Source: Deltaproteobacteria bacterium (GTDB lineage Bacteria; Desulfobacterota; Syntrophia; Syntrophales; UBA2210). Taken from it: a stretch of DNA of 45,382 nucleotides. Position 1 is the first letter of the stretch; each line of letters opens with the position of its first letter. Below the pieces are notes generated by a model. It saw only the letters and a program-made list of their open reading frames with translations, was not told the origin of the DNA and searched no databases. The position numbers and the translations under genes are program-made. The stretch is from the NCBI GenBank assembly GCA_016933965.1, contig JAFGTS010000018.1, positions 1 to 45,382 of the forward strand, read 5' to 3'. This document shows positions 1,053-21,585 of this stretch, piece by piece.

Positions 1053-1823
1053 TCAGTAACCGATTGACAGTCTGTGCAGGATGTTCCTGACGACCGTCAT
1101 GGAGGGGGCCGTGCGGGGGATTTCTGTAAGGGGTGTTCCCGATATGTCCAGATTCCTGATATGCTCGTCCTCGGGAATCCATCCAAGCAACTCGACGGGG
1201 CTGTCGCGCAAGACTTCGGACACTTCCCTGTCGCTGCGTCCCCTGTTCAGAACCAGACCGACTCCCCGGGGACTCAGGGCACGGTTATCATGAATGAGGT
1301 GCCATATGGTCCTGGAAACGGCGATGCCCTTCGCCGAAAGGTCCGAAACGATCAGGAGATAGTCGACCCGTTCCATCACTCTCCTGTTTATCTGCTCCAC
1401 CCCTGCTTCTCCATCTATGACGACGATATCGAAGTTCTCCGCCAGGTCGGCGATGATATCCCTGAGCAACGCGTTCACTCTGCAGTAGCACCCGGCATCC
1501 TCCGGTCTCCCGATCGCGAGAAGCGCCGTATTGCTTCCTTCCGCCAATGCGTGAAATACCTCATAATCAAGTAATTCCGAGACGACCGACCTGTCGTCGC
1601 CGGCCCTTTCGCGGAGCCTGCCGACAATTTCCCGGCGTATATCATCAATGGTTTTCAGCACGGTCACCCCGAGAGACAGGGCCAGTCCCGATGCAGGGTC
1701 GGCGTCGATGGCAAGGATCCTTTTCCGCAATTCCCGCGACATTTCGGCCACCAGCAGCGCCGCCAGCGACGTCTTCCCGACACCGCCCTTGCCGCAAACC
1801 GCTATTGTCTTGATCTCGTTCAT
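1053..1823 (-). CDS. CooC-type metallocentre maturation ATPase
   Basis: A 256-residue MinD/NifH-superfamily ATPase. It has a deviant Walker A motif GKGGVGKTS (residues 11-19), the switch motif IDADP (39-43) and a VVIDGEAG Walker B-like segment near 134-141. It also has a GCYC motif giving Cys112 and Cys114, the CxC pair that in CooC of CO dehydrogenase maturation binds nickel at the dimer interface. The start was set at ATG 1823, preceded by GAGGAAAT; an upstream GTG at 1853 overlaps the stop of the preceding gene and lacks a ribosome site. It is the last gene of the operon. No CO dehydrogenase gene is nearby, so its client is probably one of the iron-sulfur enzymes encoded upstream (inference). 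It could also be a generic ParA-like ATPase, but the CxC makes the CooC subgroup the better call. Confidence 0.8.
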   Translation of the reverse strand: MNEIKTIAVCGKGGVGKTSLAALLVAEMSRELRKRILAIDADPASGLALSLGVTVLKTIDDIRREIVGRLRERAGDDRSVVSELLDYEVFHALAEGSNTALLAIGRPEDAGCYCRVNALLRDIIADLAENFDIVVIDGEAGVEQINRRVMERVDYLLIVSDLSAKGIAVSRTIWHLIHDNRALSPRGVGLVLNRGRSDREVSEVLRDSPVELLGWIPEDEHIRNLDISGTPLTEIPRTAPSMTVVRNILHRLSIGY

Positions 1824-1852
1824 GGCACATTTCCTCGCCCGGAGCGGTCGCA

Positions 1853-2626
1853 CTATCCGGTCCGGGCGGCCAGGACGGCCGCGCCCAGGGCCCCCACGAT
1901 CTGAGGATCGCAGGGCACCCGTTGCACCTGCAATCCGATCGCCTCCTGAAGGGCGGAGAACATACCCTCATTCTTCGCCACACCGCCGGTCATCGTGATG
2001 TCTTCCTCCGGATCGATCCCCCGTGCGAGGGATGCAATGCGATGCGCCATGGCACGGTGAAGACCGCTGACGATATCGGGGATGTCGCGCCCCGCGTTGA
2101 CCAGTGAGATGATCTCTGTCTCAGCGAATACGACGCATTGATTTGAGATACCAACGGGGTTCGACGATCGATACGCCGGTGTGCCCATCTCTTCAAAGTC
2201 GATGTCGAGTGCGTTCGCCATGATCTCAAGGAACCGTCCCGTTCCGGAGGCGCATTTATCGTTATAGACATAGCGCAGGATGTTCCCCTTGTCATCCATA
2301 CGCATGGCCTTGGCGTCCTGACCTCCCACGTCGATAACCATGCGCACCGAAGGAAGCAGCCATATGGCACCCGTCCCGTGGCAGAGGATTTCCGACTCCA
2401 CGTCATCGGCAAAGGGGATCCTGTTCCTGCCGTATCCCGTGCCGAAGCAGCGTTCCACCCGATGTCGCTCCAAACCCGCTTTTTCAAGGACCTTCCTCAT
2501 GACGTCGACGGCCGAATCCTCCGGTTGCGGTTTCGAGCGTATCACCGCTGACGCGGCGATGGTATCGGAGTCAAGTATGACGGCCTTGGCGGTGAGAGAA
2601 CCGATATCACATCCCGCGGTGATCAT
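1853..2626 (-). CDS. HgdC/BcrD-family ATPase activator, paralogue 2
   Basis: A 257-residue member of the ASKHA-fold activators of 2-hydroxyacyl-CoA dehydratases and class I benzoyl-CoA reductases. These couple ATP hydrolysis to injection of one low-potential electron into the partner enzyme. Visible motifs: phosphate-1 loop GCDIGSLTAKAV at the N-terminus, phosphate-2 VIDVGGQDAKAM, the first cluster cysteine in NDKCASGTGRFLE, the second in NQCVVFAETEI, and the adenosine-site TGGVAKN. Each subunit supplies two Cys to one [4Fe-4S] cluster bridging the dimer, and both are present. The ATG overlaps the stop of the upstream paralogue by four bases (ATGA), so translation is coupled. With paralogue 1 it may form a heterodimer as in BcrA/BcrD, rather than the homodimer of HgdC. 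Confidence 0.9.
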   Translation of the reverse strand: MITAGCDIGSLTAKAVILDSDTIAASAVIRSKPQPEDSAVDVMRKVLEKAGLERHRVERCFGTGYGRNRIPFADDVESEILCHGTGAIWLLPSVRMVIDVGGQDAKAMRMDDKGNILRYVYNDKCASGTGRFLEIMANALDIDFEEMGTPAYRSSNPVGISNQCVVFAETEIISLVNAGRDIPDIVSGLHRAMAHRIASLARGIDPEEDITMTGGVAKNEGMFSALQEAIGLQVQRVPCDPQIVGALGAAVLAARTG

Positions 2627-3408
2627 TGTGCACTCCTTGCGCTTTTCTGTGCCTCAACGGCGGCTCCCAGGGCACCGATGAGCTGGGGATCGATCCGGTG
2701 ACGCTTCATTCGTATTCCAAGCAGTCCCTCAAGGGCGGCCACAACAGCGGTATTTTTCGCCACGCCGCCCGACATGCATACCTCCCGCTCGACACCGACA
2801 CTATTGGCAAGTATGGCCACCCGGTTCGCCATTGCCTGGTTCACGGCGGCGGCGACATCCTCGATCGATGCCCCGGCATTCAGGTGATGAATGACCTCCG
2901 CCTGTGCCCACACCGTACAGGTTGATGCCAGCGACAGCGGCCGCCGTGACCGCGCCGACAGCGGTCCCAACTGATCGATCGGCAGTCCCAGGACATCGGC
3001 CATCACTTCCAGGAACCTTCCCGTTCCCGCGGCACACTTGTCGTTCGTGATGAACTTGACGATCCTGCCGTCACTGTCCATTTTCATTGCCTTGCAGTCC
3101 TGGCCGCCGATATCGATCACCGTTCTCACCGACGGGAGCACCCAGCGCGCCCCCGTTCCATGGCAGCTTATTTCCGAAACGGCCCTCTGTACGAAAGGTA
3201 TTCGGTCCCTTCCGTACCCCGTACCCACACAGTAACTGATGGAATCCTTCGACAGACCGGCAGTGCCGAGCGCCTCTTCCATGACGGCCAGTGCCGAGTC
3301 CTCAGGTCGCGCCCGTGATCTGATCATCGCCGCCCCGAGTATTTTTCGCTCATTCAGAATAACCGCCTTTGCCGTGAGTGACCCCACGTCACATCCCGCC
3401 ACGATCAT
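2623..3408 (-). CDS. HgdC/BcrD-family ATPase activator, paralogue 1
   Basis: A 261-residue activator with the same domain plan as its downstream neighbour. It has GCDVGSLTAKAV (phosphate-1), VIDIGGQDCKAM (phosphate-2), NDKCAAGTGRFLE and STCTVWAQAEV (the two [4Fe-4S] cysteines), and SGGVAKN. It differs at many surface positions and in the stretch after the first Cys (PLSARSRRPLSLAST against PAYRSSNPVGISN), so the pair is an old duplication, not a recent copy. The length matches HgdC (about 260) and not the longer BcrA (about 440). It overlaps the upstream BcrB-like gene by four bases. Two dissimilar activators plus three catalytic-type subunits resembles class I benzoyl-CoA reductase composition more than HgdABC; the substrate is not determined by sequence. 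Confidence 0.9.
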   Translation of the reverse strand: MIVAGCDVGSLTAKAVILNERKILGAAMIRSRARPEDSALAVMEEALGTAGLSKDSISYCVGTGYGRDRIPFVQRAVSEISCHGTGARWVLPSVRTVIDIGGQDCKAMKMDSDGRIVKFITNDKCAAGTGRFLEVMADVLGLPIDQLGPLSARSRRPLSLASTCTVWAQAEVIHHLNAGASIEDVAAAVNQAMANRVAILANSVGVEREVCMSGGVAKNTAVVAALEGLLGIRMKRHRIDPQLIGALGAAVEAQKSARSAQ

Positions 3409-4808
3409 ACGCCGATCCTCCGCAGGTGAATGAATTCTTCGATCCTGTCCGTTATGGCCTCCCAGGACTGTATCCGGTCGTCAAAGGCATCCGCGTACAG
3501 AACGAGCGCGGGAATACCCAGGCGCTCAAGATCGCGGGCCAGCAGCTTCACCATCCCCCAGGTGTTCCTGCACCCCATGGTACCGATATAGGCCACGAAG
3601 TCGGCTTTGAAAAGGCGCGCTGCACAAATGGTATCATCAAGCCACATGTGAGGGGCATCGTAGGGCCCCCTGATCTGTTTCACCATGGGCATCCGCGACA
3701 TCTGGCCGGCCAGGGAACCTATCATGTCATCAAGTGTCCCTGTTTCGATCCGGTATCCCTCTTCCTCGCGGCCGCGGGCGTAGCAGGCATCCTCCTGCCA
3801 AAAGGTAAAGAGCATGGACCCGAGATGGGTTATGTCGTGGTCATTCAGCCAGCTCCAGAAGCGCATGTCCGTCGTGTAATGATCGATATAACAGAAGAGC
3901 CCCCGTGCCCGTTCTCTTCCCGTGGTGGTGCCCGCGATCCCCCGTTTCGCGTTCTCACGTGCCCTTTTCACCATGGACCGCAGGAGTTCGGTGTACTCAG
4001 GGGTTCCTCCCATCATGAATTTTCCCCCGTAGAGCATCAGATCATAGATGCCGGGGGCGGGGGCGGGAACAAGTCTCTGGAGTTCCATGAGCTCGCAGGA
4101 GATCTCATCCTGTATACGGGTCTCCTGCAGGATATCGGACAGGACTGTTTCCTGAAGCGTCCGGCCCGTCTGTTCTTCGAGAAAGGATATGAGATGCCGG
4201 AAATCGCGGTGGTGATATGCGTTCGCCCGCTCATCAGCAAGTGTCGGCGGATAGTTCAACTGAAAGAACGGTACATCAAGGTACGCCCCGGCAAAGGCGA
4301 AGGAATTGGCATTGGTGTCACAGATACCCGGTGAATCGCAGACAATGAAATCGGGCCGCACGGCAAGGCCGGCAAGGACGGCCCCCAGGGCCCCCCTCTG
4401 AGCGGAACAGGATGTTTCCGTAAATCCGACCTCGCAGCAGTAATCAAGGTACTCGGCCGTTCCCCGCCTGAGGACGAACGTTCCCAGAACGGTGAGCGCT
4501 TCCAGGCACATCGGGACCACGTCAAAGGCATAGAGGATCGGTGTGGCGACGCAGAAAGATGTGAGGGCTATTCTTTTTCCCCGTTCTTTCGCTTCGATAC
4601 ACTGCCGCAGGTACCGGGCAAGAAGTTTCAGGAGAAGAACGCCCTCCCGCCCGCACCGCACCAGCGCATCGAGAACCTCTCTGAAATGGGGGACCAGGGA
4701 AATAAGAGCTCTGTATTCCTTTGCGGTTCCATCATCGCTTCCGGCAGCGTTCTCAAGGATGCTCCAGAGCATCCAGTCATAATTGTATTCCGTCGTTTCC
4801 TGTTTCAC
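3405..4808 (-). CDS. BcrB/HgdA-like catalytic subunit, copy 2
   Basis: A 467-residue protein of the benzoyl-CoA reductase / 2-hydroxyacyl-CoA dehydratase D-component family. Candidate iron-sulfur cysteines sit in conserved contexts: TETSCSAQRG, DFIVCDSPGICDTNAN and GTMGCRNTWG. It aligns over its whole length with the 476-residue copy upstream, about two-thirds identical by eye, beginning with (M/V)KQETxEYxYDW. That alignment and an AGGGAG site fix the start at GTG 4808; a longer frame to 4874 would run into the small upstream gene. Its own C-terminus overlaps the activator gene by four bases. Known relatives bind the acyl-CoA and a [4Fe-4S] or double-cubane cluster and receive electrons from the activator. 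Which of the two copies is catalytic, or whether they form a heteromer, cannot be told here. Confidence 0.85.
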   Translation of the reverse strand: MKQETTEYNYDWMLWSILENAAGSDDGTAKEYRALISLVPHFREVLDALVRCGREGVLLLKLLARYLRQCIEAKERGKRIALTSFCVATPILYAFDVVPMCLEALTVLGTFVLRRGTAEYLDYCCEVGFTETSCSAQRGALGAVLAGLAVRPDFIVCDSPGICDTNANSFAFAGAYLDVPFFQLNYPPTLADERANAYHHRDFRHLISFLEEQTGRTLQETVLSDILQETRIQDEISCELMELQRLVPAPAPGIYDLMLYGGKFMMGGTPEYTELLRSMVKRARENAKRGIAGTTTGRERARGLFCYIDHYTTDMRFWSWLNDHDITHLGSMLFTFWQEDACYARGREEEGYRIETGTLDDMIGSLAGQMSRMPMVKQIRGPYDAPHMWLDDTICAARLFKADFVAYIGTMGCRNTWGMVKLLARDLERLGIPALVLYADAFDDRIQSWEAITDRIEEFIHLRRIGV

Positions 4809-4816
4809 GCTTCTCC

Positions 4817-5047
4817 CTACAGGGTCATGCTGATCGCTGCGCCGTCCGTGATCCTCCGCACGTAGAGCCGGCATCGTTCCTTCAGAATCTGCAGGTCCGT
4901 TGTTCGTTCGATTTTTTTCAGGGAACCGAGGGCCTGTTCGTGGAACAGGGTCAACGCATCAATGGCCCGCTGCCGTTCCACGAGAACGCGGGAGGCGTCC
5001 AGTGCCATCCCCGTCAGGACTTCCAACGCTATAGTTTCCTTTTCCAT
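4817..5047 (-). CDS. Small helical protein between the two BcrB-like genes
   Basis: A 76-residue protein I do not recognise. It is charged and predicted almost all alpha-helical (for example SRVLVERQRAIDALTLFHEQ), with one Cys near the C-terminus, no signal peptide and no membrane helix. The start was placed at ATG 5047 after GAAGGGAAAGAA; an in-frame ATG at 5071 would add eight residues. Its stop lies only eight bases before the GTG of the next gene, whose ribosome site overlaps this stop, so it sits well inside the transcript and is probably translated. Its position between two homologous large subunits suggests an assembly or small accessory subunit; that is inference only. Confidence 0.6.
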   Translation of the reverse strand: MEKETIALEVLTGMALDASRVLVERQRAIDALTLFHEQALGSLKKIERTTDLQILKERCRLYVRRITDGAAISMTL

Positions 5048-6580: not shown

Positions 6581-7717
6581 CTAACCCAGCCGCTCCATGA
6601 AAGCATCGATCCGCATCTTGAGCCGGCCCGTTTCGACAAGAGGGCCGTACTCACGTTCTATCCTCATGCAGGGAACCCCCTCCGCCTCGAGGTCACGCTC
6701 GAATATCCCGTTCTCAGAACCGTGAAGGTCGCAGAACCGGATATTCTGAAGGATGACCCCGTCGACCCGGGCCTCGCGAATCCGCCTTCGCAAAACCTGC
6801 AATCTGTCCTTATAATAGCCGAACATGCGGGGGCAATAGGAATGCTGCAGGTAGCGACGGGTCAGCGCTTTCAGCGGTTCATCACTCTCATCCACCAGGT
6901 CGGCGTAGGACCGGAAACCGAAACAGAGCGTATCCGCAACGATGAGACCTCCCGAATCTTCGATGACATCCATGAAACCGACATCATCGTTGACACTCCC
7001 AACCAGCATGAGCCGCTTCCTCCCCTCCGAAATATCCCGAGCTTCTCTTTCCAGGGAGTCCAGAGTTCCTTCAAGCAGCTCGCGGTATGAACCCCGGGGC
7101 ATGGCGGAACCCGCCACCAGCACAGCCAGTGCATCGCTTCCCGAGAGAAGGACTGTATCGCCCGTTCTCAGCCGGTCCATCCTGCAGAGCAGACGGCGAA
7201 TTCCGTTATAAAGCCCTATCGCTTCGGCAACGGCGTCATCGGTGATCGTCAGATCAAAATATTGTTCGAGGCTCTCCTTGAAGATCACCGTTTCCTCTTC
7301 AAACCAGGAGATGCTGTAATCGGTCACCTTGTGCGGCACGCCGAAGTAATGAAAATAGCCCGGCAGACTTCCCTGATAATCTTCACCCGCCTTTCTCCAG
7401 CATTCATCAAGCCTCCTCATCGAATCACATCCCGGGACAATAACGGCGCCGTCCAGGAATTCATACCGCCCCTCTCCCGCCAGTTGCAGTATACATTTCG
7501 GAAAACTGCATATCACGGGACCGAAGTACGTGTCGCCCACGGAAAGGGACGTTGTGCCGACACCACGGAACCGGAAGGGCAGCATGCCCGCCGCGTGAAT
7601 GATCTCTTCCGGAAGGTAGGTACAGGGAAAGCCGATCACCTTTCCACCCGATCCCTTCCATTTCTCGACAAAGGGATTGTTGAGGGTCCGGGCCATGGTC
7701 CTGAAAGTATCAATCAT
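6581..7717 (-). CDS. BcrC/HgdB-like subunit of the reductase/dehydratase
   Basis: A 378-residue protein of the 2-hydroxyglutaryl-CoA dehydratase D-component family. It begins with the family hallmark GFPCTYLPEEIIHAAG (residues about 29-44). Further cysteines lie in PVICSFPKC, VPGCDSMRRLDEC, YCPRMF and NIRFCDLHGSE; in HgdB and BcrC the equivalents of the first, the GCDS-type and the FCD-type cysteines hold the [4Fe-4S] or double-cubane cluster. The length fits BcrC (about 385). Its ATG overlaps the end of the preceding unknown gene by eight bases, so the helical proteins and the reductase are translationally coupled. With one BcrC-like and two BcrB-like subunits plus two activators, the operon encodes more components than any standard dehydratase set that I know. 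Confidence 0.88.
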   Translation of the reverse strand: MIDTFRTMARTLNNPFVEKWKGSGGKVIGFPCTYLPEEIIHAAGMLPFRFRGVGTTSLSVGDTYFGPVICSFPKCILQLAGEGRYEFLDGAVIVPGCDSMRRLDECWRKAGEDYQGSLPGYFHYFGVPHKVTDYSISWFEEETVIFKESLEQYFDLTITDDAVAEAIGLYNGIRRLLCRMDRLRTGDTVLLSGSDALAVLVAGSAMPRGSYRELLEGTLDSLEREARDISEGRKRLMLVGSVNDDVGFMDVIEDSGGLIVADTLCFGFRSYADLVDESDEPLKALTRRYLQHSYCPRMFGYYKDRLQVLRRRIREARVDGVILQNIRFCDLHGSENGIFERDLEAEGVPCMRIEREYGPLVETGRLKMRIDAFMERLG

Positions 7718-8999
7718 GAGGCATTCCCCTTTCCGCCATCAGCCGCGCCAGCCGGTCAAAAGCCTCATGATACTCTCGGTTTTCGTGTCCGCCGGCCTTT
7801 TCCAGTATGTCACAGAGCAGGTGGAGCAGTGGGGGGGCCAGCGGTGCCGCCAGGGGCTCCAGCAGTTCACGAAAGATCCACCCCAATGCCTTTCCCGCAT
7901 CCTCGTGGTCGAGGGAAGCGACAAGTCCGTCGGCGAATGACCGCGGAAGGTCGGGACAGACATCATGAACCCGGTTGATAAGCCGGATCCAGGTGTTCAG
8001 GTATTCGGCGATCTCGCCCGTGTCAATATCCGAAACGACCCGAGTCAGTGCTTCCGCCAGTTCTTCATCCTCGAACTCTTCGAGCATGCCGACCCGTTGT
8101 GTCATGCCCTGTAAGGCCGGATTGACCTCCGACGGCAGGTTCGCGATGAGAGCGGTTACCAGTTCAGGCTTTGACAGCAAGGCCTCACAACGGGCCCTGA
8201 TGAGGGAAGCCCTTTCCTGAGCGATGGCCGCCCGCGCCTTGCAGTATAATTCCGTATCGATATCTTCCACGGCATCTTTCAGGATATCCGTGCAGTATAA
8301 TTCAAGGAGCGGTCTTCCCCCCTTTCCCAGAAGGAGGCTTCCCGTGTGAAAGCGCCTGATGAGCTCACACACGGCGTTCAGGCATTCAGCCGCCTGCCGC
8401 CCGTCAACTTTCCTGAGCAGGGAAAGACCCAGATCGGCCAGAAGGTCCGGACCCACCTTGTTCTCAACGGGCCTGAGCAGTTCGCGACCTGCCTGCATGG
8501 AAATGTTCGCCGTTTCGGGAAAAAGGGAAAGAATGCTTGCCACCTTTGCCGGATACTTCCAGAGGACGTCGTTGAGGGCGGCGACGGTCTCGGTCGCCTC
8601 ACTGCGGGACCGTTCCACGGCCTCGCGGATCTCACCGAAGTCGGCATGTTCTATGAGCTCTCGTATGCATTCCCGCCGTACCCTCACCCGTTCCGTTCGT
8701 TCTTCATCCGTTTCAGTGTTGTAGCGGCCGGCGCAGGTGGAAAGGAACGCACCTACTTCGGCAGGAAGGGTTTCCCCTCCTGTCGGTGATGAACGTTTTT
8801 TCCGCTGATACCGTTCCAGGCGGCGGTCGACAAAAGAAGCGAGGGCGCGTCCCGACCGGCCGCCCTTCCTCGACCACTGTCCGATGAAACCCCTGACGAC
8901 GGACACAACCGTCATCCTGAACCCCGATGTGTTCAGAACACCCAGGATGACCCGGGCCGCCTCGTCGTGCAGATCTTCGTGCTTCTCTTCCCTTTCCAT
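7710..8999 (-). CDS. Unknown helical-repeat protein, large member of a three-gene family
   Basis: A 429-residue protein of unknown function. The start was taken at ATG 8999 because AGGAGAGG precedes it; an in-frame ATG at 9020 would add seven residues. It is predicted all-helical, with no membrane span, signal peptide or known catalytic motif. A segment at residues about 140-209, with the pattern LWxxxxxVxxxLxLxPxxxN then GPDLLxxLxxSLLxxxD, matches the core of the two smaller proteins encoded just upstream. A C-terminal part with PDLPRSFADGLVASLDHED resembles the C-terminal half of the 235-residue member (PGLVGKCVAGVFESIDQEE). The N-terminal 130 residues are rich in Arg and Glu and unmatched. 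It overlaps the BcrC-like gene. Possible role: scaffold or assembly factor for the neighbouring multisubunit enzyme (inference). Confidence 0.7.
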   Translation of the reverse strand: MEREEKHEDLHDEAARVILGVLNTSGFRMTVVSVVRGFIGQWSRKGGRSGRALASFVDRRLERYQRKKRSSPTGGETLPAEVGAFLSTCAGRYNTETDEERTERVRVRRECIRELIEHADFGEIREAVERSRSEATETVAALNDVLWKYPAKVASILSLFPETANISMQAGRELLRPVENKVGPDLLADLGLSLLRKVDGRQAAECLNAVCELIRRFHTGSLLLGKGGRPLLELYCTDILKDAVEDIDTELYCKARAAIAQERASLIRARCEALLSKPELVTALIANLPSEVNPALQGMTQRVGMLEEFEDEELAEALTRVVSDIDTGEIAEYLNTWIRLINRVHDVCPDLPRSFADGLVASLDHEDAGKALGWIFRELLEPLAAPLAPPLLHLLCDILEKAGGHENREYHEAFDRLARLMAERGMPHD

Positions 9000-9055
9000 G
9001 CACCTCTCCTGCTTCGCCATGTGCGGGAATTCCGGATGCCACGGTGGAACCGCGA

Positions 9056-9763
9056 CTATGAACGCCTTCGGAAACGGGTCATGATCCGTCCCCGGATGAT
9101 ACCAAAGACCATGGACAGAACGGCCGGCTTTTGATCAAGAAAGGCATTCACCAGTACCTGCAGGGCCGAACGCATTTCCTCTTGATCGATACTTTCGAAT
9201 ACGCCTGCGACACATTTTCCAACCAGCCCGGGGTCCCTCTCGTGCAGGGCATTAATGTAGCGTGCCGCGACGGTGATGCCCCCGCCGATCAGCCGGGGTC
9301 CCATATCCACGGCAACGTCACCCCCTATTTTTTTCAGTTCCGGCAGGGCCTTCAGAAATACAGCATAATGCTCTGCCAGGGCCCCGCGTATCTCCGGTGA
9401 AGCCTCCCAGAGGTCCCGCAGTATCGCCCCGTAGGTGGAGACGCATTCCCGAAGCACATCAGTATCGATCTCCTCACCGATGCTCCGGAGAAACTCTTTC
9501 AACAGCGCGGGAGGAAATTTCTCGTGTATCTGTTTTCCCAGTTCCGCCGCCGCGCCGGCGCCGCAATTGACGAGTTTCGGCAGCGCCGCGAGCACGTTGA
9601 GCATCACTTCGGTGTCCTGCCACAGAAAGGTTCGTACTATCTCCCGTCCCCCCTCGGAGTTCATGGTGTTCAGTTGATTCCTGACGATATCCTTCAGGAA
9701 GGGAGTGTCGATCAGTTCCTGCAGGACGCCGCCGCTTTTCCTCTCCTCCACGGTGGTGTTCAT
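9056..9763 (-). CDS. Unknown helical protein, middle member of the three-gene family
   Basis: A 235-residue protein I do not recognise. Residues 40-104 carry the shared core: REIVRTFLWQDTEV, then LAALPKLVN, then HEKFPPALLKEFLRSIGEEID. The 145-residue neighbour has almost the same pattern (RGLVRTMLWRDAEV, LGALPSILN, REKFPPELLRSFMRSLAEDID). A second helical region (about 117-235) resembles the C-terminal part of the 429-residue member. It ends in a strongly basic tail (GRIMTRFRRRS), possibly for contact with nucleic acid, membrane or an acidic partner. ATG 9763 overlaps the previous stop (ATGA) and is preceded by GGAGGAAC. It has no membrane segment. Function unknown; co-expression with the reductase is the only clue. 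Confidence 0.7.
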   Translation of the reverse strand: MNTTVEERKSGGVLQELIDTPFLKDIVRNQLNTMNSEGGREIVRTFLWQDTEVMLNVLAALPKLVNCGAGAAAELGKQIHEKFPPALLKEFLRSIGEEIDTDVLRECVSTYGAILRDLWEASPEIRGALAEHYAVFLKALPELKKIGGDVAVDMGPRLIGGGITVAARYINALHERDPGLVGKCVAGVFESIDQEEMRSALQVLVNAFLDQKPAVLSMVFGIIRGRIMTRFRRRS

Positions 9764-10197
9764 GACTGTCGTTCCTCCTCTCCCGATGCGCTGCCGGAAC
9801 CCTGTTCCCGGAGCACTTCCATGACGACGGGCAGCAACTCTTCGATGAGGACCCGCGTGTTGCCCTCGGCCCGCGACAGTGATTCCCGGTCGATGTCCTC
9901 CGCCAGTGATCTCATGAAACTCCGCAGCAGTTCCGGCGGAAACTTTTCCCGAACCTGTATGAGCATCTCATCATATCCCTTGATAAAAGCGTTCAGGATG
10001 GACGGCAACGCTCCGAGCACCCCGAGAAACACCTCGGCGTCCCGCCAGAGCATTGTCCGCACCAGGCCGCGTGCCGATTCCGGATCGATGTTTGCGAGCA
10101 GTATCCTGAGGTTCTCCTTGACGTTCGGTTTTTCGAGCAACCGGCCGATAACCCGGTCCATGGCATCTATAACCCCTCTGTTCCCGCTTTCCGTCAT
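9760..10197 (-). CDS. Unknown helical protein, small member of the three-gene family
   Basis: A 145-residue protein of unknown function, made essentially of the family core (residues 43-107) with a short helical N-terminus and a low-complexity, Ser/Glu-rich C-terminal tail (SGSASGEEERQS). Core signature: RGLVRTMLWRDAEV, GALPSILN, EKFPPELLRSFMRSLAEDID. The similarity to the 235-residue neighbour is high enough to see without computation, so the genes arose by duplication. ATG 10197 has AAGGAG seven bases upstream, and only 11 bases separate it from the stop of the acyl-CoA dehydrogenase gene. No cysteine or other metal ligand is conserved with its paralogues, which argues against a catalytic redox role. 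Confidence 0.7.
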   Translation of the reverse strand: MTESGNRGVIDAMDRVIGRLLEKPNVKENLRILLANIDPESARGLVRTMLWRDAEVFLGVLGALPSILNAFIKGYDEMLIQVREKFPPELLRSFMRSLAEDIDRESLSRAEGNTRVLIEELLPVVMEVLREQGSGSASGEEERQS

Positions 10198-10208
10198 GAC
10201 AATTCTCC

Positions 10209-11483
10209 TTACAGGGTGGCACAGTTGAAGAAGTACCGCGCCGCTTCCATCTGGCAGAGCTGTTTCCCGCCCATCCAGAGTTGTATGATCTTGATGTCCC
10301 GCCAGTGCTTTTCTATGTCCCAGTCCCTGTCGGGACCGTACGCACCGAGGACGTCCATGGCAATACCGAAATTCTCGACCGCCCTGTCGGAAACGAAATC
10401 CTTGATGTTCCTGATCCGACCGACGGTCCGCTCCGATATGATGGGATCACCGTACGGCTTGTTCCGCCTGTCTCCCATCATGGCTGCCTCATATCCCAGG
10501 ATCCGGCAGATATCGATATCGCCGGCAATGCGACCGATGACGGCGGCCACGGCTTCATGCTCCTTCAGGGGTTGATTGTTATAGGTACGCTCCGAAACGA
10601 ACCCGGAGAGACGTTCATAGAGGTTCATCATGGCACCCGTCAGAAAGGCGACACTCGCGACCTGTCCCAGGGAGATAAGCTGATAAAACGCCTCGGCGTC
10701 CGTTCCCGGCCCGTGCGCCCGGTACCAGGCAGGGACCCTCACATCTTCAAACCAGATATCGCCGTTCTTGTCCGCCGCCATGCCCGCCTTTTCATAAGGC
10801 CCCCCCTGGGTGACCCCCGGGGTGTCGGCGGGAACGAAAATGAAGGCAAAATCCCGTGGATCATCGGAACCGGGCCGGGTGGTACAGGGAACGCCGAAAA
10901 GAATCGAGACACCTCCCGTATTGGTAGGCCACAGCTTATGGCCGTTGATGACCCATTCATCTCCGTCACGTCGTGCCGTTGTCCTGATGGTTTTTCCCCG
11001 TATCAGCCCCAGGTTCTCTATGTCAGCCCCACCCTGGGGTTCGGTCATCGCATTGGCCGCGAAAACGGCCTTATCCGTATTGCAGAACAGTGGAGCGAAC
11101 TCTGCGGCAAGACGGCTGTTCTCATAAGGATCAATCAGGATCGTAAAGAAAGGCCAGAAGGTGACGCCGAAGGCCACAGCTATTCCCGTGTCGGCACGTC
11201 CGATCTCCTCACTGATGGCGTAGGCGGCCCTGAAGAGATAATCCGACCTTCCCAGTCCCCAGCCGCCGAATTCCGGAGGAAACATGGCCTTTTGAAAGCC
11301 AAGCCTTCCCATGAGCGAATCAAAGACCGGCTCGATCAGCGCATGCTCTTTCCAGTCTTCATCATACTCGCGCCGGTGGGGCATTACCTCCTTTTCAACC
11401 CAGTTCCTCAGCACCCGTCTGAGGTGCCGGTCCATGGGCGATATGTACTCTTCCGGTTTTGAAAACTCTTCGAAGTGCTTCAT
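10209..11483 (-). CDS. Acyl-CoA dehydrogenase-family flavoprotein with atypical active site
   Basis: A 424-residue protein with the whole acyl-CoA dehydrogenase fold. The flavin/acyl-CoA loop MTEPQGGAD is at 146-154 (family TEPxxGSD), NGHKLWPTN at 180-188, and the C-terminal signature EKHWRDIKIIQLWMGG at 391-406. In medium-chain enzymes the C-terminal motif reads YEGT, with Glu as catalytic base; here the aligned residues are WMGG, so the base is absent at this site. Some ring-acyl-CoA dehydrogenases are reported to use another acidic residue; Asp98 in GRADTG is one candidate position, unproven. The start was set at ATG 11483 after GGGGGG; a longer open frame to 11738 lies inside the neighbouring gene. 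Likely substrate: a branched or cyclic acyl-CoA tied to the downstream reductase (inference). Confidence 0.87.
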   Translation of the reverse strand: MKHFEEFSKPEEYISPMDRHLRRVLRNWVEKEVMPHRREYDEDWKEHALIEPVFDSLMGRLGFQKAMFPPEFGGWGLGRSDYLFRAAYAISEEIGRADTGIAVAFGVTFWPFFTILIDPYENSRLAAEFAPLFCNTDKAVFAANAMTEPQGGADIENLGLIRGKTIRTTARRDGDEWVINGHKLWPTNTGGVSILFGVPCTTRPGSDDPRDFAFIFVPADTPGVTQGGPYEKAGMAADKNGDIWFEDVRVPAWYRAHGPGTDAEAFYQLISLGQVASVAFLTGAMMNLYERLSGFVSERTYNNQPLKEHEAVAAVIGRIAGDIDICRILGYEAAMMGDRRNKPYGDPIISERTVGRIRNIKDFVSDRAVENFGIAMDVLGAYGPDRDWDIEKHWRDIKIIQLWMGGKQLCQMEAARYFFNCATL

Positions 11484-11485
11484 GG

Positions 11486-12721
11486 TCACACCCCCCGGCT
11501 TCCGTAAAAGAACCTGGCCGCCTGCATCTTTACGGGAACGTCTGCGCCGACGCCGGCAACGATCGACTGTATGGTCTTGATATCGCGCCAGTGTTTTTCC
11601 GCGTGCCATTCCCTCGCGTACCCCGCCGACCCCATGAGTTCCATGCCGCGGTTCATCGCCCTCAGGGCGGCTGACTGTACCCGGGATCCGATTATCTGAC
11701 CATAGGTGAACAATTTTTCGAGACGGTCCCCCTCCCACTGCTCCGGCGCAGCCATGATGCCCGTCAGCTCCGAGAGGAGTATCCGGCCAAGGAGTATCTC
11801 CATCGCCACATCGGCAAGAACAGAGGCGCAGAGCTGATCATTCTTCATGGGGGTCCCCCCTTTGATGACCCTGTTTTCTGACCAGTCGTTCAGGATCTCA
11901 AAAAAATCCATGGCAGCGCCCAGGCTGACCGCTCCAAGGTACGCATTCAGAAACGTGTACGTTTCCTCAAGTATTCCTTCCCGATCCAGGATGAATCCCT
12001 CAGGTACCGATATTCGTTCCAGAGTTATCTCGGCGTTCCGGCAGGCGCTCAGGCCGGTAGTCCTCACCTCCGGTCCCCGTTGGACCCCCTCACCATCGAT
12101 GATGACCGCCCAGACCGCCCGTCCCTCTTTATCGGCGGCCGCGATACCGAAGGAATCCGCTATCGCACCGCAGGCACAGGGTCTCAGGTTCCGCCCGGTA
12201 AGAGAGGTCGCATTCCCGGCAGTTTCAAGAACTGCGGTCATGGCCCGGCCGCCGAACAGCGGCGTTTCCACGTCGGAGAAGCCGGCTGCCGGAAGCACCA
12301 GGGCCGTGGTTTGAAGGCCCTCCCCACCGTAACGGGGGGCAAAAGAGGAGAGCGCCCTCTCGCTCTGAGCAGGCACACGGGTCAGAAGTGCAAGGAACAC
12401 ATAGGTCACGGCCAGCATGAATCCCTCTGCAGCATCGGCCTTCCCCGTCTCGAGCAGGACCGATGTCACTCGGGGACAGTCCGTGGTACCGTCCCAGCCG
12501 AACCCACCACGGTTCTCGGGAAGCGTCAGCCGCTGGAGGCCGATGTCAAGCTCGAGATTCTTTCGTTTCTCCCGGAACAGTGTTTCGTAATGCTCCCGGT
12601 ATTCCTGCCGGCGGGATATGACCTCCCTCTCGGCCCACTGCCGCACCACGTTCAGGACGCCTTTCGCGGCATCATCGGCGGCATCCTCTCGAAAAAAAAG
12701 CCTGTCAAGGTCCGTCCCCAT
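11486..12721 (-). CDS. Divergent acyl-CoA dehydrogenase-family paralogue
   Basis: A 411-residue protein related to the downstream flavoprotein, most clearly at the C-terminus: YAREWHAEKHWRDIKTIQ here against DRDWDIEKHWRDIKIIQ there. The FAD/substrate loop is degenerate, with LVLPAAGFSD (141-150) in place of TEPxxGSD. The catalytic YEGT site reads VAGV (388-391), again without the Glu base. The SD-like AGGGAGGGAG before ATG 12721 is strong. Paired acyl-CoA dehydrogenase subunits forming alpha2beta2 heteromers, with only one complete FAD site per pair, are known from steroid side-chain degradation; adjacent genes with one intact and one decayed loop fit that model (inference). It could instead be an acyl-CoA-binding non-enzyme. 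First gene after tetR, at an 80-bp distance. Confidence 0.8.
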   Translation of the reverse strand: MGTDLDRLFFREDAADDAAKGVLNVVRQWAEREVISRRQEYREHYETLFREKRKNLELDIGLQRLTLPENRGGFGWDGTTDCPRVTSVLLETGKADAAEGFMLAVTYVFLALLTRVPAQSERALSSFAPRYGGEGLQTTALVLPAAGFSDVETPLFGGRAMTAVLETAGNATSLTGRNLRPCACGAIADSFGIAAADKEGRAVWAVIIDGEGVQRGPEVRTTGLSACRNAEITLERISVPEGFILDREGILEETYTFLNAYLGAVSLGAAMDFFEILNDWSENRVIKGGTPMKNDQLCASVLADVAMEILLGRILLSELTGIMAAPEQWEGDRLEKLFTYGQIIGSRVQSAALRAMNRGMELMGSAGYAREWHAEKHWRDIKTIQSIVAGVGADVPVKMQAARFFYGSRGV

Positions 12722-12801: not shown

Positions 12802-13440
12802 TTATTCCGTAAACGCCCGTCCCTTTTCCGTGAGGTAGGTCTCGAACATGGCGAGGATCAGCCGTATCAGGTTTTCGATGATCTCATCCCGCTCCATGCG
12901 GTTTTCCACCAGGTAGCCGTGAATGAGTTGGAGGCACATCCCGAGAGCGGCATGACCGAACAGGATCGGGCTGATGCCCTCAATGACCCCCTCATTGATC
13001 CAGTCCTGAATATCTTCGGCCACATCCTCCGCAAACCCGGAAAAGTAATTCCATACATTGATGTTCAATTCCTTGTCGACACCGAAGCTTCCCCGGAGAA
13101 GCATCAGGAGCTGCTGGGGGTTGGCGTCCACGTAATCGAAGATCGCCGTCAGCGTTTCCCTGATGATGGTGATCCGCTCCTCCCTGTCCCATATATCAAC
13201 GGGTTTTCTCAGCATCTTGATGTGGATCCTGAGGTTCTTCAATCCTTCGATGGTTATCTGCTCAAAGAGGTCTCGCTTGTCCACGAAGTAGTTATAGAAC
13301 GTCCCCGCCGACATGCCGACGGCCCTCACAATGTCCATGACCTGGGTGTCGTGATATCCGTGCTGGCTGAACAGCTCGCAGGCCGCACCGACGATCTTTT
13401 CTCTTGTCTCCTGTCTTTTTTCCTCAGCGCTCTTTGTCAT
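12802..13440 (-). CDS. TetR-family transcriptional repressor
   Basis: A 212-residue regulator. The N-terminal TetR domain (about residues 12-60) reads EKIVGAACELFSQHGYHDT, then VMDIVRAVGMSAGTFYNYFVDKRDLF, the typical helix-turn-helix with the FYNYF recognition helix. The C-terminal two-thirds is a helical ligand and dimer domain without a recognisable ligand signature. It is the first gene of the operon, read in the same direction as all downstream genes, and its start is preceded by GGGGGAGATGGG. A consensus promoter and a perfect inverted repeat lie just upstream, so it most likely represses itself and the whole operon until an inducer binds, probably an acyl-CoA as in FadR/PaaR-type TetR proteins (inference). 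Confidence 0.93.
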   Translation of the reverse strand: MTKSAEEKRQETREKIVGAACELFSQHGYHDTQVMDIVRAVGMSAGTFYNYFVDKRDLFEQITIEGLKNLRIHIKMLRKPVDIWDREERITIIRETLTAIFDYVDANPQQLLMLLRGSFGVDKELNINVWNYFSGFAEDVAEDIQDWINEGVIEGISPILFGHAALGMCLQLIHGYLVENRMERDEIIENLIRLILAMFETYLTEKGRAFTE

Positions 13441-13741: not shown

Positions 13742-14902
13742 TCAGTCGGCCTGTTTTCTCAGAAAGGCCGGTGTTTCATAATCCGACATTTCGTCATCGT
13801 TGATCATTCCCATTTTCACGACGACCTGCTTATCGCTGCCCCGGTCCTTCCTGTTCCGGATGAAGGTGGGTGTCGACAGGTCTTCCCTCCTCGTCATACC
13901 GGCGGGTGACGCGATGGGGATATCTTCCTTCCGCTTCTGTTCGTGCATGCCGAAACCGGTTGCGATCACGGTGATGCGCAGTGAATCCCCCATCGATTCA
14001 TCGATAACGGTCCCGAAAATGATGTTGGCGTCCTCATGCGCTTCCGACTGGACCAGCGATGATGCTTCGTTCACCTCGTAAAGGGTCATGCCGGGACCTC
14101 CGGTCACGCTGAGAAGAACGCCCCGCGCGCCCTGAATGGAATTATCCTCGAGCAGCGGAGATGATATGGCCATCTGGGCCGCTTCCACCGCCCGGTTTTC
14201 GCCGCTGGCGATACCCGTTCCCATGAGGGCGAGCCCCATACCGGACATGATGTTCTTCACGTCGGCGAAATCGAGATTTATGAGCCCCGGGACCATAATG
14301 AGATCGGAGATCCCCTGTACTCCGTGATAGAGGATGTCGTCAGCCTTTTTGAAGGCATCGAGAAGTGACATCTCTCGTCCGCTGACGCTGAGAAGGCGCT
14401 GATTGGGAATGACGATGAGCGTATCGACCACCTGTTTCAGGACAAGAAGTCCTTCTTCCGCCTGCTGTTCCCTGCGCTTTCCCTCAAATTGAAAAGGTTT
14501 TGTCACCACGGCGACGGTGAGCGCACCCAGTTCCCGCGCTATCTCCGCGACAACCGGCGCGCCGCCCGTTCCCGTTCCTCCTCCAAGGCCGGCGGTGATA
14601 AAGACCATGTCGGCCCCGTTGAGGACCCTTCTGATCTCTTCCGTCGATTCCACCGCCGCTTCCCGTCCAATGACGGGATCCGACCCGGCCCCCAGTCCCT
14701 TGGTGACCTCAGCGCCGAGCTGGACCTTGATCGGCGCCTTGGACACCTGCAGTGACTGTGCGTCTGTATTGGCAGCAATGAAATCGACACCGGCAAGGCT
14801 ATAGGAGATCATCATGTTGACGGCATTGCCGCCGCCTCCCCCGATACCGAGAACCTTGATCTTGGCGTTGTTCTCCCTGCCGCCTTCCACTAATTCAAAC
14901 AT
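13742..14902 (-). CDS. ftsZ: Cell division GTPase FtsZ
   Basis: A 386-residue tubulin homologue that polymerises into the Z-ring. Visible motifs: nucleotide-binding [13 protein letters not shown] near the N-terminus, the tubulin signature [13 protein letters not shown], the synergy region with [11 protein letters not shown], and a C-terminal peptide [12 protein letters not shown] that binds FtsA. The start was placed at ATG 14902, preceded by GAGGGAGGG; a TTG two codons upstream is possible but less likely. A variable acidic/basic linker separates the GTPase core from the tail. It is the last gene of the dcw cluster, 14 bp after ftsA. Confidence 0.98.
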
Positions 14903-14916
14903 GAGCAACCCTCCCT

Positions 14917-16146
14917 CTAAAAAAAGTCGTCAAACCACCTTTTTGCCCTTTGCATGACATTGTTGAACACCTTTTTCCTGCCGCTGGTGATGACCGCCGC
15001 CCCGTGCCGGCTTTCAGTACCGTGGATGACCAGGCCGACAGCCGTCGCATAGAGCGGATTTTCGACAATATCTGTTATTCCTCCCACACCGGTGGGACAC
15101 CCCTTGCGGACCGGGGTGTTGAATATCTGTTCCGCCAGTTCGGTGGCTCCCTGCAGGTTTGCTGTTCCTCCGGTCATTACCACACCGGCACCGAGAAGAT
15201 CGTCATATCCCGATTTGACGATCTCCCGCTGCGCCAGTCCAAGGATTTCTTCCAGGCGCGGCTCTATGATCTCGCCGAGCACCTGTCGCGATACTCTTCG
15301 CGGTCCCCTGCCCCCGACACTGGGCACTTCGATCATCTCTTCCTGTGGAATCATCGGTATGAAGGCACATCCGTACTGTATCTTTATCTTTTCCGCTTCG
15401 ACGGCGGGTGTCCTGAGTCCCACGGCAATGTCGTTCGTGATATAGTTTCCGCCCAGGGAAAGAACCGCCGTGTGCTGGATGCTTCCTTCGGCGTAGACGG
15501 CGATATCCGTCGTTCCGCCGCCGATATCGATCAACGCCACCCCCAGCTCCATCTCGTCCTGGCTCAAAACCGCCCTGGCCGAGGCGATGGGTTCCAGAAT
15601 GATGTCATTCACATCAATGCCGACGCGGTTGACTGACTTGATGATGTTCTGGAGAGAGGTAATAGAGGCGATCACCACATGAACCTTCGCCTCCAGGCGC
15701 ACTCCCGACATGCCGATCGGTTCCCTGATCCCGTCCTGATCATCGACAATGTAGTACTGCGGAAGGACGTGAATGATCTGTTTATCCTGGGGTATCGCGA
15801 TCGCCGTCGCCGCGTCGGTGGCCCTCCTCACGTCGGCCGGCTCCACCTCTCCTCCCTTGACCGCAACGATACCGAGGCTGTTCAGCCCGCGAATATGGCC
15901 GCCGGCTATACCGGTATAGACCGATTTTATTTCATAGCCCGACATGAGTTCTGCTTCTTCCACGGCACGCTTGATCGAATCCACGGTACTGTCGATATTG
16001 ACCACGACCCCCTTGCGCAAACCCTTGGAAGGATGGGTCCCGATTCCCACGATATCGATACCCGAATCGGTGATCTCTCCCACGATCGCACAGGTCTTCG
16101 TCGTTCCCATGTCCAGGCCGACGACTATGTTTTCCCTTCGTGCCAT
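14917..16146 (-). CDS. ftsA: Cell division protein FtsA
   Basis: A 409-residue actin-like ATPase that tethers FtsZ to the membrane and recruits late divisome proteins. It has the phosphate-1 loop [15 protein letters not shown] at the N-terminus, [13 protein letters not shown] (phosphate 2), [12 protein letters not shown] (adenosine site), and a C-terminal amphipathic helix ([15 protein letters not shown]) for membrane attachment. Length is typical. It lies between ftsQ and ftsZ with very short gaps, so all three should share one mRNA. Confidence 0.98.
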
Positions 16147-16163
16147 TCCCGGTGAAACCTTCC

Positions 16164-17015
16164 CTAAATATCCCTCTCCCGTACCCCCTTGGGATCCGGA
16201 TGAACCCGTGCGTGCCCCTGAGCAACGGTAACCCGTGCAGGATTCGTCAGGTCGATCCGTGCGTATGATGACCCCGAGTCACCCCGGACGGCAAGATCGG
16301 CAAGCACTTTCCTGAGCCGGAAGAACGTATCTTCATATCCATCAAATCCGAGCTGGAGGACCAACCCGTTGTCTGTGTACAGGGTAAAACCGAACCGCTC
16401 ATCCACCTGAATTTCAGATACATGCTCGATCTGTGGAAACGACTCGCGGGCGCTGAGACACCGCATCAGGCTGTAACATTTCCGAACCAGGGCCTTGTCG
16501 GCCACTCCCCTTTCAAGAATACCGGTAAGCACCGGCAGATTAACAGAGTCATCGCTTTTCAGTCCCTTGAACACTTCGCCCTCCCGGTCCAGGATAAAGA
16601 GGCTCCCTTCTTTGCGGATCAGAGCCGCCGGTTCCCGCTCGACGATCTCAATGATCAGCCTGTCGGGAAATTCTCTCCCCACCGACACGTCCTTCACCCA
16701 GGGGTTCGCCTTTACCTGCCGCTCCATCTTTGAAGGATTGATCCGCAGTATATTCATGGAAGGAACGATGCCTGCCCGTTCGATAACTTCCTGCTCACTG
16801 ACGTGACGGCAGCCCCTTACTTCGGCGTCATGCAGACGGAACAGCGTGGCGCACATGGCGAAATTATAGAAATATACCAGGAGGAGCGCGATGACGGCGG
16901 AAATGCCGATGAGGGTCACCGTCTTCATCACTTCCCCGGTGATCTTCTCCTTCTGCCGTTGCACCCGGTATTTTTTCGTCTTCACCGATGCTCTCAGCGA
17001 CCGCTCAACCTTCAT
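16164..17015 (-). CDS. ftsQ: Cell division protein FtsQ
   Basis: A 283-residue bitopic membrane protein of the FtsQ-FtsB-FtsL complex. A basic cytoplasmic N-terminus is followed by one membrane helix (about residues 31-50, VTLIGISAVIALLLVYFYNFA). Next comes a POTRA domain (HDAEVRGCRHVSEQEVIERAGI) and then the FtsQ beta domain with PWVKDVSVGREFPDRLIIEIVEREP. The start was set at ATG 17015, inside the end of murB (11-bp overlap); a longer frame to 17075 lies within murB. A ddl gene, often found between murB and ftsQ, is absent here. Confidence 0.95.
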   Translation of the reverse strand: MKVERSLRASVKTKKYRVQRQKEKITGEVMKTVTLIGISAVIALLLVYFYNFAMCATLFRLHDAEVRGCRHVSEQEVIERAGIVPSMNILRINPSKMERQVKANPWVKDVSVGREFPDRLIIEIVEREPAALIRKEGSLFILDREGEVFKGLKSDDSVNLPVLTGILERGVADKALVRKCYSLMRCLSARESFPQIEHVSEIQVDERFGFTLYTDNGLVLQLGFDGYEDTFFRLRKVLADLAVRGDSGSSYARIDLTNPARVTVAQGHARVHPDPKGVRERDI

Positions 17016-17928
17016 CACCCACCACCCTGACTTCCGGTTCAAGCAACACCTGTGTTTTCCGAAAGACCTCGTCACGCACCAGTTCGATGAGGGATGTTAC
17101 ATCCTTTGCTCTCGCCCCACCGATGTTCACGATGAAGTTCGCGTGCTTTTCCGATACCATGGCGTTTCCCACACGCCGTCCTTTCAATCCCGCTTCCTCA
17201 ATCAGTTTGCCGGCGGGCCTTCCCGCCTGATTCTTGAATATCGATCCCGCGCTTTCATACTGGACCGGGTGTTTCGATTTTCGCTGCATGAGGATTTCCG
17301 AGATCCTGGAGGCGATCTCGTCTCTCCGTCCCCGCCGCAGAATAAATACCGCTGCCGTCACGATCATACCGTCCGGGATATCGAGGTTCCGGTACTGAAA
17401 GTCCAGGTCCCGGCGGGCCACTTCGTGTTCCGTACCGTCACCGTCAAGAAGGAACACGGAATGAACGACGTCTTTCATTTCCGTTCCCCAGGCCCCGGCG
17501 TTCATTCTGACGGCCCCTCCCGCGCTGCCCGGTATGCCGGCGCAGAACTCCATTCCCTCAAGGGAATGATCCAGGCAGAACGAAACAAGCCGCAAAAGGG
17601 GAACTCCCGACTCTGCATGGAGGTACTGGTGGTCGTTTCCGGCACCCTGCAGGCGAAGACCGTCGAATTTCCGCAGCGATATCAGGACACCCTGGTACCC
17701 CCCCTCGCGGACGATGAGATTCGTGCAATTGCCCACGGGCAGAAAAGAAACCCCCCGCGATCCAAGGAACCGGAGCATTTTTCCCAACTCCTCCCTGTCA
17801 GCGGGAAAGGCGAGGGCATCGGTTTTTCCCCCCACCCCCATGGACGTGTGACGCTCCATGGGCTCATTGAACAGCACCCGGCCGGGAAGGATCTCTTCGA
17901 TCGTCTGTTTTACCGAAGCTTCGATCAC
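17005..17928 (-). CDS. murB: UDP-N-acetylenolpyruvoylglucosamine reductase MurB
   Basis: A 307-residue FAD enzyme that reduces UDP-GlcNAc-enolpyruvate to UDP-MurNAc with NADPH. Motifs: TSMGVGGKTDALAFP and PVGNCTNLIVREGG (FAD domain), GIPGSAGGAVRMNAGAWG (FAD pyrophosphate loop), and YESAGSIFKNQAG containing the catalytic Ser of type I/II enzymes. The C-terminus has AGLKGRRVGNAMVSEKHANFIVN. The start is GTG 17928, overlapping the murC stop as GTGA and preceded by AGGAGAAA. Confidence 0.97.
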   Translation of the reverse strand: MIEASVKQTIEEILPGRVLFNEPMERHTSMGVGGKTDALAFPADREELGKMLRFLGSRGVSFLPVGNCTNLIVREGGYQGVLISLRKFDGLRLQGAGNDHQYLHAESGVPLLRLVSFCLDHSLEGMEFCAGIPGSAGGAVRMNAGAWGTEMKDVVHSVFLLDGDGTEHEVARRDLDFQYRNLDIPDGMIVTAAVFILRRGRRDEIASRISEILMQRKSKHPVQYESAGSIFKNQAGRPAGKLIEEAGLKGRRVGNAMVSEKHANFIVNIGGARAKDVTSLIELVRDEVFRKTQVLLEPEVRVVGDEG

Positions 17929-20434: not shown

Positions 20435-21585
20435 GTCAGCACCTGTACCGTTACCTTCGGTTTTTCTTCTCCTCCCTGTGAAGAAATATTCAGCAGTATC
20501 CCGACGAGGGCCATTGAAATGATGAGAGAGGTCCCGCCGTAGCTCAAAAAGGGGAGTACCAGCCCCTTCGTCGGTATCAACCCCATGACACCGGCCATAT
20601 TGATGAACGCCTCCAGGGCGACGATGGTGGTAAGACCCGCCGCCAGGAGACTCCCGAAAAGGTCCCGGCAATGAAAGGAGATCATGAATCCCCGTATGAT
20701 AAAAACGGTAAAGAGCAGAACCACGGCGAAGACTCCGAGGAAGCCCGCCTCCTCGCCGATGACCGAGAGGATGAAGTCCGTATGCGGCTCGGGAAGATAA
20801 AAAAGTTTCTGCATACTGTTCCCCAGCCCGACACCGAAGATACCGCCGGATCCAAAGGATATGAAGGACTGAATGATGTGAAACCCGGCCCCCTGGGGAT
20901 CGTCCCAGGGATTGAGGAAGGTCATTACCCGCTTGAGCCGGTAGCTTTCATGGAGCACCAGGATCACACCGATGGGGATCAGCGCCGCGAAGAATCCGGC
21001 GAGATATATGATCCTGCTTCCCGCCAGGTAGAACATGGTGACCACGGCGGCCGCCATGATGACGGCGGTTCCGAAATCGGGCTGCCGCAGCACGAGTATG
21101 AGGATGATGCCCGTCACGATGAGGGGCACGGGAAAGAAACGGGTGAATTCCTTCCGGTGTTCCCTTTTTTTATCGAGGTAATGGGCCATGAAAATGACAA
21201 GAGTGATCTTTACCACCTCGGAGACCTGGAAGGAAAATCCACAGACCCGCAGCCACCTCGTCGCCCCCTTCACGGTGATGCCGAGTCCGGGAACCATGAG
21301 CAACACAAGCAGAACGACGGAAAGAATTATGCCGCCGTACGCCACATATCTCAGGTAGCGGTACGACATCTTCGACAGGAAGATCATCACGACAAACCCG
21401 AAGAGGAGAAAGCTCAGCTGTTTCTTCAGAAAATAATAGCCATCGCCGAATTTCTCCTGGGCGACTATGGAACTGGAGCTGAAGATCATGACCGTACCGA
21501 CGATGAGCAGCAACAGCACTGCCATGAGCAGGATGGGATCGCTCCCGTTCTGATCATTATTTTTGATATCAGCGACGGGATTCAT
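20431..21585 (-). CDS. ftsW: Septal peptidoglycan glycosyltransferase FtsW
   Basis: A 384-residue SEDS-family integral membrane protein with about ten helices. It polymerises lipid II together with the FtsI transpeptidase. Signature segments include IFSSSSIVAQEKFGDGYYFLKKQL, KGATRWL, EVVKITLVIFMAHYL, LRQPDFGTAVIM, NPWDDPQGAGFHIIQS (catalytic Asp loop region) and the terminal GLVLPFLSYGGTSLI. The start was set at ATG 21585; it overlaps the end of murD by 17 bp. A longer frame to 21669 is within murD. Confidence 0.97.
   Translation of the reverse strand: MNPVADIKNNDQNGSDPILLMAVLLLLIVGTVMIFSSSSIVAQEKFGDGYYFLKKQLSFLLFGFVVMIFLSKMSYRYLRYVAYGGIILSVVLLVLLMVPGLGITVKGATRWLRVCGFSFQVSEVVKITLVIFMAHYLDKKREHRKEFTRFFPVPLIVTGIILILVLRQPDFGTAVIMAAAVVTMFYLAGSRIIYLAGFFAALIPIGVILVLHESYRLKRVMTFLNPWDDPQGAGFHIIQSFISFGSGGIFGVGLGNSMQKLFYLPEPHTDFILSVIGEEAGFLGVFAVVLLFTVFIIRGFMISFHCRDLFGSLLAAGLTTIVALEAFINMAGVMGLIPTKGLVLPFLSYGGTSLIISMALVGILLNISSQGGEEKPKVTVQVLT

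Follow-up and report, generated by a model that had tools for sequence, protein, structure and literature searches.

In a 45,382-nucleotide contig of a member of the Syntrophales (Deltaproteobacteria bacterium, assembly GCA_016933965.1, JAFGTS010000018.1; the whole stretch is called the window below), three adjacent genes on the minus strand encode proteins, here named P1, P2 and P3, that constitute one previously undescribed paralogous family of proteins predicted to be helical. The family is divided between two enzyme modules encoded at the same locus. P1 and P2 belong to a pair of acyl-CoA dehydrogenases (ACAD and ACAD2) and P3 to an enzyme resembling benzoyl-CoA reductase (BCR), and the two modules have separate histories. 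The original prediction had described three such genes, with products of 145, 235 and 429 residues and a set of common motifs weaker in the third, all of which are present: LWRDAEV/LWQDTEV, LGALPSILN/LAALPKLVN and EKFPPELLRSFMRSLAEDID/EKFPPALLKEFLRSIGEEID in P1/P2, with LWKYPAKV, LSLFPETAN and GPDLLADLGLSLLRKVD as the weaker counterparts in P3. Read from its first ATG, P3 has 436 residues; an alternative ATG at position 8999, with AGGAGAGG just upstream, gives 429 and is probably the true start.

By pairwise BLASTP, P1 and P2 are 38 % identical over 106 residues (E 1e-23), and the matches of P3 to P1 (E 0.001) and to P2 (E 0.011) are marginal. The homology of all three becomes clear once family profiles are used. 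Comparison by hhalign of alignments of 22 P1, 22 P2 and 33 P3 members yields E values of 6e-37 (P1-P2), 1.4e-12 (P1-P3) and 1.3e-17 (P2-P3), against 0.06 or worse for control profiles of TetR, ACAD and HgdB; 40 column-shuffled P3 profiles score at most 25, compared with the 87 and 127 observed. The proposed paralogy is thus upheld and the possibility that the three products come from unrelated families is rejected, as is, by the same comparison, any kinship to the helices of TetR, ACAD or HgdB. All three proteins diverge faster than the enzymes encoded beside them (mean distance 1.0–1.4 versus 0.26–0.62). A candidate second paralogue on contig C36 was dismissed, as its open reading frame (ORF) proved on inspection not to resemble the family.

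The regions in common go beyond what had been noticed at the outset: they are copies of one helical unit, some 50 residues long, whose core resembles P-x-L-L-x-x-F-x-x-S-I-x-x-x-I-D-x-x-x-L. P1 appears to carry two such units, P2 three and P3 four, perhaps five, and it is this difference in the copy number of a tandem unit that accounts for the different sizes of the proteins. A scan with a single-unit hidden Markov model lacked power, 77 real sequences giving 5 domains above 5 bits and 1540 shuffled ones 2, and the units were therefore compared profile against profile, with repeat boundaries and windows chosen after seeing the data. Nearly all tested pairs, whether of units in P1, in P2 or in different proteins, beat all 60 column shuffles; unit 1 of P3, as well as its unit 3 against units 2 or 4, did not clearly exceed their shuffles. 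A second region common to P2 (RYINALHERDPGLV) and P3 (RLINRVHDVCPDLP), already suspected from the sequence, corresponds to unit 3 of P2 and unit 5 of P3 (E 1.7e-12). In other families P3 occurs in a long form of 495–518 residues with a still higher number of units, whose additional N-terminal block is homologous to P2 (E 2.9e-11). A flavoprotein gene lies directly upstream of P3 in several of these long-P3 families (L121:6739-8073, L123:11153-12532, L124:2235-3593); Pfam assigns its product in L121 and L124 to the GMC oxidoreductases, and the L123 protein is similar in appearance.

No known family was recognised at the start, and searches for a well-characterised one found none. Single members of P1–P3 had no match above the curated cut-offs of Pfam and NCBIfam, Pfam was likewise negative for the members of 10-member P2 and P3 alignments, and there was no significant relative among PDB sequences. 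A partial literature search on Smithella, BCR and SCP2 found no description of the family, and a search of plasmids with P3 gave no match. DUF1641 (PF07849) proteins resemble P1–P3 as small helical partners of redox enzymes, with genes next to those of oxidoreductases; however, neither P1–P3 nor the 60 genomes searched in the order gave a PF07849 match, and membership was rejected. Tandem helical units in variable copy number also recall HEAT/ARM alpha-solenoids. Here the similarity stops at weak, non-significant matches to PDS5, a HEAT-repeat protein (E 0.011 in Pfam, 0.18 among PDB sequences), with no known repeat profile or superhelical fold matched by P1–P3. Structure prediction gives an all-helical P2 model of moderate confidence (predicted local distance difference test, pLDDT, 75; predicted template modelling score 0.42), for which Foldseek returned no usable match, weak evidence at this model quality. 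The P3 model, also all helical, is of poor confidence (pLDDT 45), too poor for a fold search. P1 is devoid of cysteine, no cysteine column is occupied in more than half of the P2 or P3 members, and hydropathy gives no sign of membrane spans in any of the three, which argues against a cofactor-binding or membrane-embedded role.

Relatives were searched for in one phylum, in 395 Desulfobacterota genomes, and in one pattern scan of wider genome contigs, which yielded ten Syntrophales-type loci. The order in Smithella and relatives is TetR, ACAD2, ACAD, P1, P2, (TetR), P3, HgdC-like, one or two HgdB-like, activase A, activase B, (CdhC-like) and CxC ATPase. In all 22 loci P1 comes immediately after ACAD, although the exact gaps are uncertain where ORF starts were mechanically over-extended, and the P1 and P2 genes overlap by 4 bp. 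P3 directly precedes the HgdC-like gene, and at all intact loci the two lie -20 to +42 bp apart; most such pairs overlap by 4 bp, and the pair in the window by 8 bp. The exception is L112, where the P3 gene is split in two. Among the 395 genomes, P3 occurs in 21 at E <= 1e-40 (a 22nd match, E 9e-4 in a 1056-codon frame, was discounted), and HgdC-like proteins of at least 400 bits occur in exactly these 21. None of the 54 genomes with only a weaker HgdC (<= 365 bits) has P3. The 400-bit cut was chosen after seeing the data, but as no score falls between 407 and 365 bits, the choice is uncritical in this sample. P3 and the HgdC-like protein apparently form an obligate, clade-specific partnership. 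Other BCR-type or 2-hydroxyacyl-CoA dehydratase (HAD) enzymes of the same genomes have no P3.

The two modules also occur apart. P1 and P2 are found without P3 beside an ACAD in L041, and P3 is found in L120–L127, where P1, P2 and the ACAD pair are all missing. At the 14 loci with all parts, distance-matrix correlations are 0.81–0.96 within P1, P2, ACAD and ACAD2, 0.79–0.92 within P3, HgdC, HgdB and the two activases, and 0.20–0.66 across modules, values that are descriptive because the loci are phylogenetically related. When the activases and HgdB are controlled for, P1 and P2 still track the ACADs (0.82–0.90), and the residual correlation of P3 with HgdC is just 0.34; P3 therefore tracks its whole module rather than HgdC in particular. 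The original prediction had coupled all three proteins to an oxygen-sensitive BCR/HAD-type enzyme. This holds for P3 alone, and the idea of a single complex of the three around that enzyme finds no support, given the separate distance-matrix histories and the loci in which one module stands by itself. What survives of it is the accessory role, such as scaffold or chaperone, as the likeliest kind of function. P1 and P2 are found exclusively beside ACAD genes except for one orphan P2 relative of 255 residues in genome G229 (L169:8692-9459, minus strand), encoded beside a TetR gene and an operon for a FixC-like flavoprotein, a FixX ferredoxin and an electron-transfer flavoprotein (ETF), away from any BCR-like cluster; it was not found in the two other genomes of the same family that were examined.

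The enzyme with which P3 is associated is related to, yet on its sequence would not be assigned as, benzoyl-CoA reductase. The nearest solved structure of its HgdC-like protein is BzdN (E 1.7e-39), but the score of 132 bits falls well below the equivalog cut-off for bzdN (453.8); for the beta subunit of (R)-2-hydroxyisocaproyl-CoA dehydratase the score is 136 bits against a cut-off of 700. C32, C70, C97, C265, C295 and C329 are invariant in 32 sequences and coincide, in the alignment, with cysteines of BzdN. In BzdN, six cysteine thiolates hold the [8Fe-9S] cluster, one sub-cluster of which has been lost in 2-hydroxyacyl-CoA dehydratases (PMC11971306). The retention of all six positions thus points to a reductase-like enzyme rather than a dehydratase. 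The HgdB-like subunit has diverged strongly, its best match among solved structures reaching E 3e-11; C124, C134, C163 and C413 are invariant in 41 sequences, and the active-site [4Fe-4S] cluster of class I BCR uses three cysteines. Class I BCR (BzdNOPQ/BcrABCD, of the BCR I/HAD family) and the P3 module both have a BzdN-like subunit, an HgdB/BzdO-like subunit and two activases, and no P3-like subunit is described for class I BCR in PMC11971306. In the other module, both ACADs are without glutamate at the usual catalytic position (YEGT-like motif), the first having LWMGG and ACAD2 another non-Glu residue; some ACAD relatives (L041, L118) keep it. This result covers the usual position of the base.

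Going beyond the homology, the repeats, the adjacency and the co-divergence, we infer a role for the family that we hold to be about evenly balanced between right and wrong, namely that P1–P3 are non-catalytic, module-specific docking or substrate-presenting subunits. In such a scheme one family would have grown by repeat and gene duplication, P1 and P2 would partner the heteromeric ACAD pair, and P3 the ATP-driven BCR-like enzyme with its BzdN/HgdC-like and BzdO/HgdB-like subunits and two activases. Each would bind to its own module and offer a docking or scaffold surface on which the CoA-thioester substrate is held or presented; alternatively, the P proteins would bring the two modules together for hand-over. 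The C-terminal tail of P2 is basic and amphipathic, its last 20 residues having a net charge of +3 to +9 in relatives, and may tether the protein to the membrane or an acidic partner. Common descent of a linked pair would produce the same co-occurrence of P3 and HgdC, which thus shows linkage rather than binding. Against docking subunits, neighbourhood and co-divergence are equally expected of a maturation chaperone, and with a poor P3 model and an unmatched P2 model, an alpha-solenoid shape is at best a suggestion.

A possible though doubtful alternative is that the proteins are soluble and carry a bulky hydrophobic acyl-CoA or lipid. They would then replace SCP2, to which they are not homologous, in moving substrate between ligase, dehydrogenase and reductase. 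In two P-less clusters (L177 and L179, with the nearest other ACADs at 406–412 bits), two tandem SCP2 proteins follow ACAD in the P1/P2 slot, and in L178 one SCP2 protein directly precedes HgdC in the P3 slot; no SCP2 protein was detected in any P-bearing locus examined. This occupation of the same slots suggests a comparable job for P1–P3, an analogy drawn from three clusters. SCP2-bearing clusters are few in this sample, however, most HgdC clusters without P also lack SCP2, Pfam fails to confirm some of the SCP2 proteins assigned in L183 and L193, and no lipid pocket is visible in the models. P1–P3 themselves are predicted to be all helical and have no match to PF02036, the SCP2 family. It is less probable still that the proteins are assembly chaperones, P3 inserting the double-cubane and [4Fe-4S] clusters into the BCR-like enzyme and P1/P2 folding or pairing the ACAD heteromer. 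The overlap of the P3 and HgdC genes, suggestive of translational coupling, the maturation-type NifH/MinD-like CxC ATPase in the same operon and the fast divergence of P1–P3 would all fit such a function, but conserved cysteine ligands are missing, other BCR/HAD enzymes of the same genomes manage without P3, ACADs normally need no dedicated chaperone, and it would be left unexplained why one family serves both a flavoprotein and an iron-sulphur enzyme. Least probable are regulators, for example substrate sensors acting with TetR proteins, or mere membrane tethers. TetR genes adjoin P2 or P3 in many loci, the P2 tail is conserved and the orphan P2 relative of G229 also has a TetR neighbour; yet no DNA-binding or signalling domain was found, the TetR position varies while the P1/P2-ACAD and P3-HgdC adjacencies are constant, and P1 and P3 lack the tail.

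The docking role, if true, would show how anaerobes organise some of the lowest-potential chemistry in biology, which is that of BCR/HAD enzymes: one subfamily would possess an obligate extra subunit akin to the partners of an ACAD. It would also point to an unassigned pathway widespread in the Syntrophales, including Smithella, and in other Desulfobacterota. In its most far-reaching and improbable version, P1–P3 would represent a novel class of substrate-channelling proteins made of helical repeats. These would physically link an ATP-driven, Birch-type reductase of CoA esters with a pair of ACADs that lack the usual catalytic base, and would take the place of SCP2 carriers in an anaerobic pathway for a bulky substrate.

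Table 1. Genes and predicted repeat units of the P1–P3 locus (positions in the window)
Feature	Position	Strand	Remarks
P1, two predicted repeat units, no cysteine	9760..10197	-	145 residues; directly downstream of ACAD gene in 22 loci
P1 repeat unit 1 (KPNVKENLRILLANIDPESARGLVRT)	10054..10131	-	versus P1 unit 2, E 1.2e-4, reached by 0 of 60 shuffles
P1 repeat unit 2 (FPPELLRSFMRSLAEDIDRESLSRAEG)	9862..9942	-	
P2, three predicted repeat units, conserved basic amphipathic C-terminal tail	9056..9763	-	235 residues; AlphaFold2 pLDDT 75, all helical
P2 repeat unit 1	9626..9706	-	versus P2 unit 2, E 0.0043, 0 of 60 shuffles
P2 repeat unit 2	9437..9517	-	
P2 repeat unit 3	9155..9235	-	versus P2 unit 2, E 7.6e-7; versus P3 unit 5, E 1.7e-12
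P2 C-terminal tail	9059..9124	-	basic; tryptophan in most members
P3, four or five predicted repeat units	7710..9020	-	overlaps HgdC-like gene
P3 repeat unit 2, core common to P1/P2	8373..8453	-	
P3 repeat unit 3, weak	8226..8318	-	versus P2 unit 2, E 2.6e-4; versus P3 unit 2, not above shuffles
P3 repeat unit 4	7995..8075	-	versus P3 unit 2, E 1.3e-7
P3 repeat unit 5	7878..7958	-	versus P2 unit 3, E 1.7e-12
HgdC/BzdN-like subunit, 378 residues	6581..7717	-	six cysteines aligned with BzdN: C32, C70, C97, C265, C295, C329
HgdB/BzdO-like putative catalytic subunit, copy 1, 476 residues	5073..6503	-	invariant C124, C134, C163, C413
HgdB/BzdO-like putative catalytic subunit, copy 2	3405..4874	-	
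CoA-enzyme activase A (BadF/BadG/BcrA/BcrD family)	2623..3408	-	
CoA-enzyme activase B	1853..2626	-	
NifH/MinD-like ATPase	1053..1853	-	invariant CxC
ACAD homologue, about 424 residues from internal ATG	10209..11483	-	ORF open to 11738; Met at usual catalytic Glu position
ACAD2, second divergent ACAD homologue	11486..12721	-	usual position without catalytic Glu
TetR-family regulator of the operon	12802..13440	-	

The CxC ATPase at the end of the operon is presumably comparable to CooC. Between it and activase B, most P-bearing operons encode a protein of about 245 residues that contains a domain of the CdhC type (acetyl-CoA synthase beta) and has CxxC(x5)C as an invariant motif (e.g., L034:5923-6657, minus strand); in the source genome, this protein is encoded alone on another contig (G000:C37:47864-48586). 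Downstream of the CxC ATPase, many relatives have a second, distinct BCR/HAD-type enzyme set with an HgdC-like protein of about 170–212 bits (e.g., L036:18130-20000 and L110:9802-13816). On its other side the operon of the window adjoins, at 13742-20671, a probable division and cell-wall cluster with candidate genes for FtsZ, FtsA, FtsQ, MurB, MurC and MurG.

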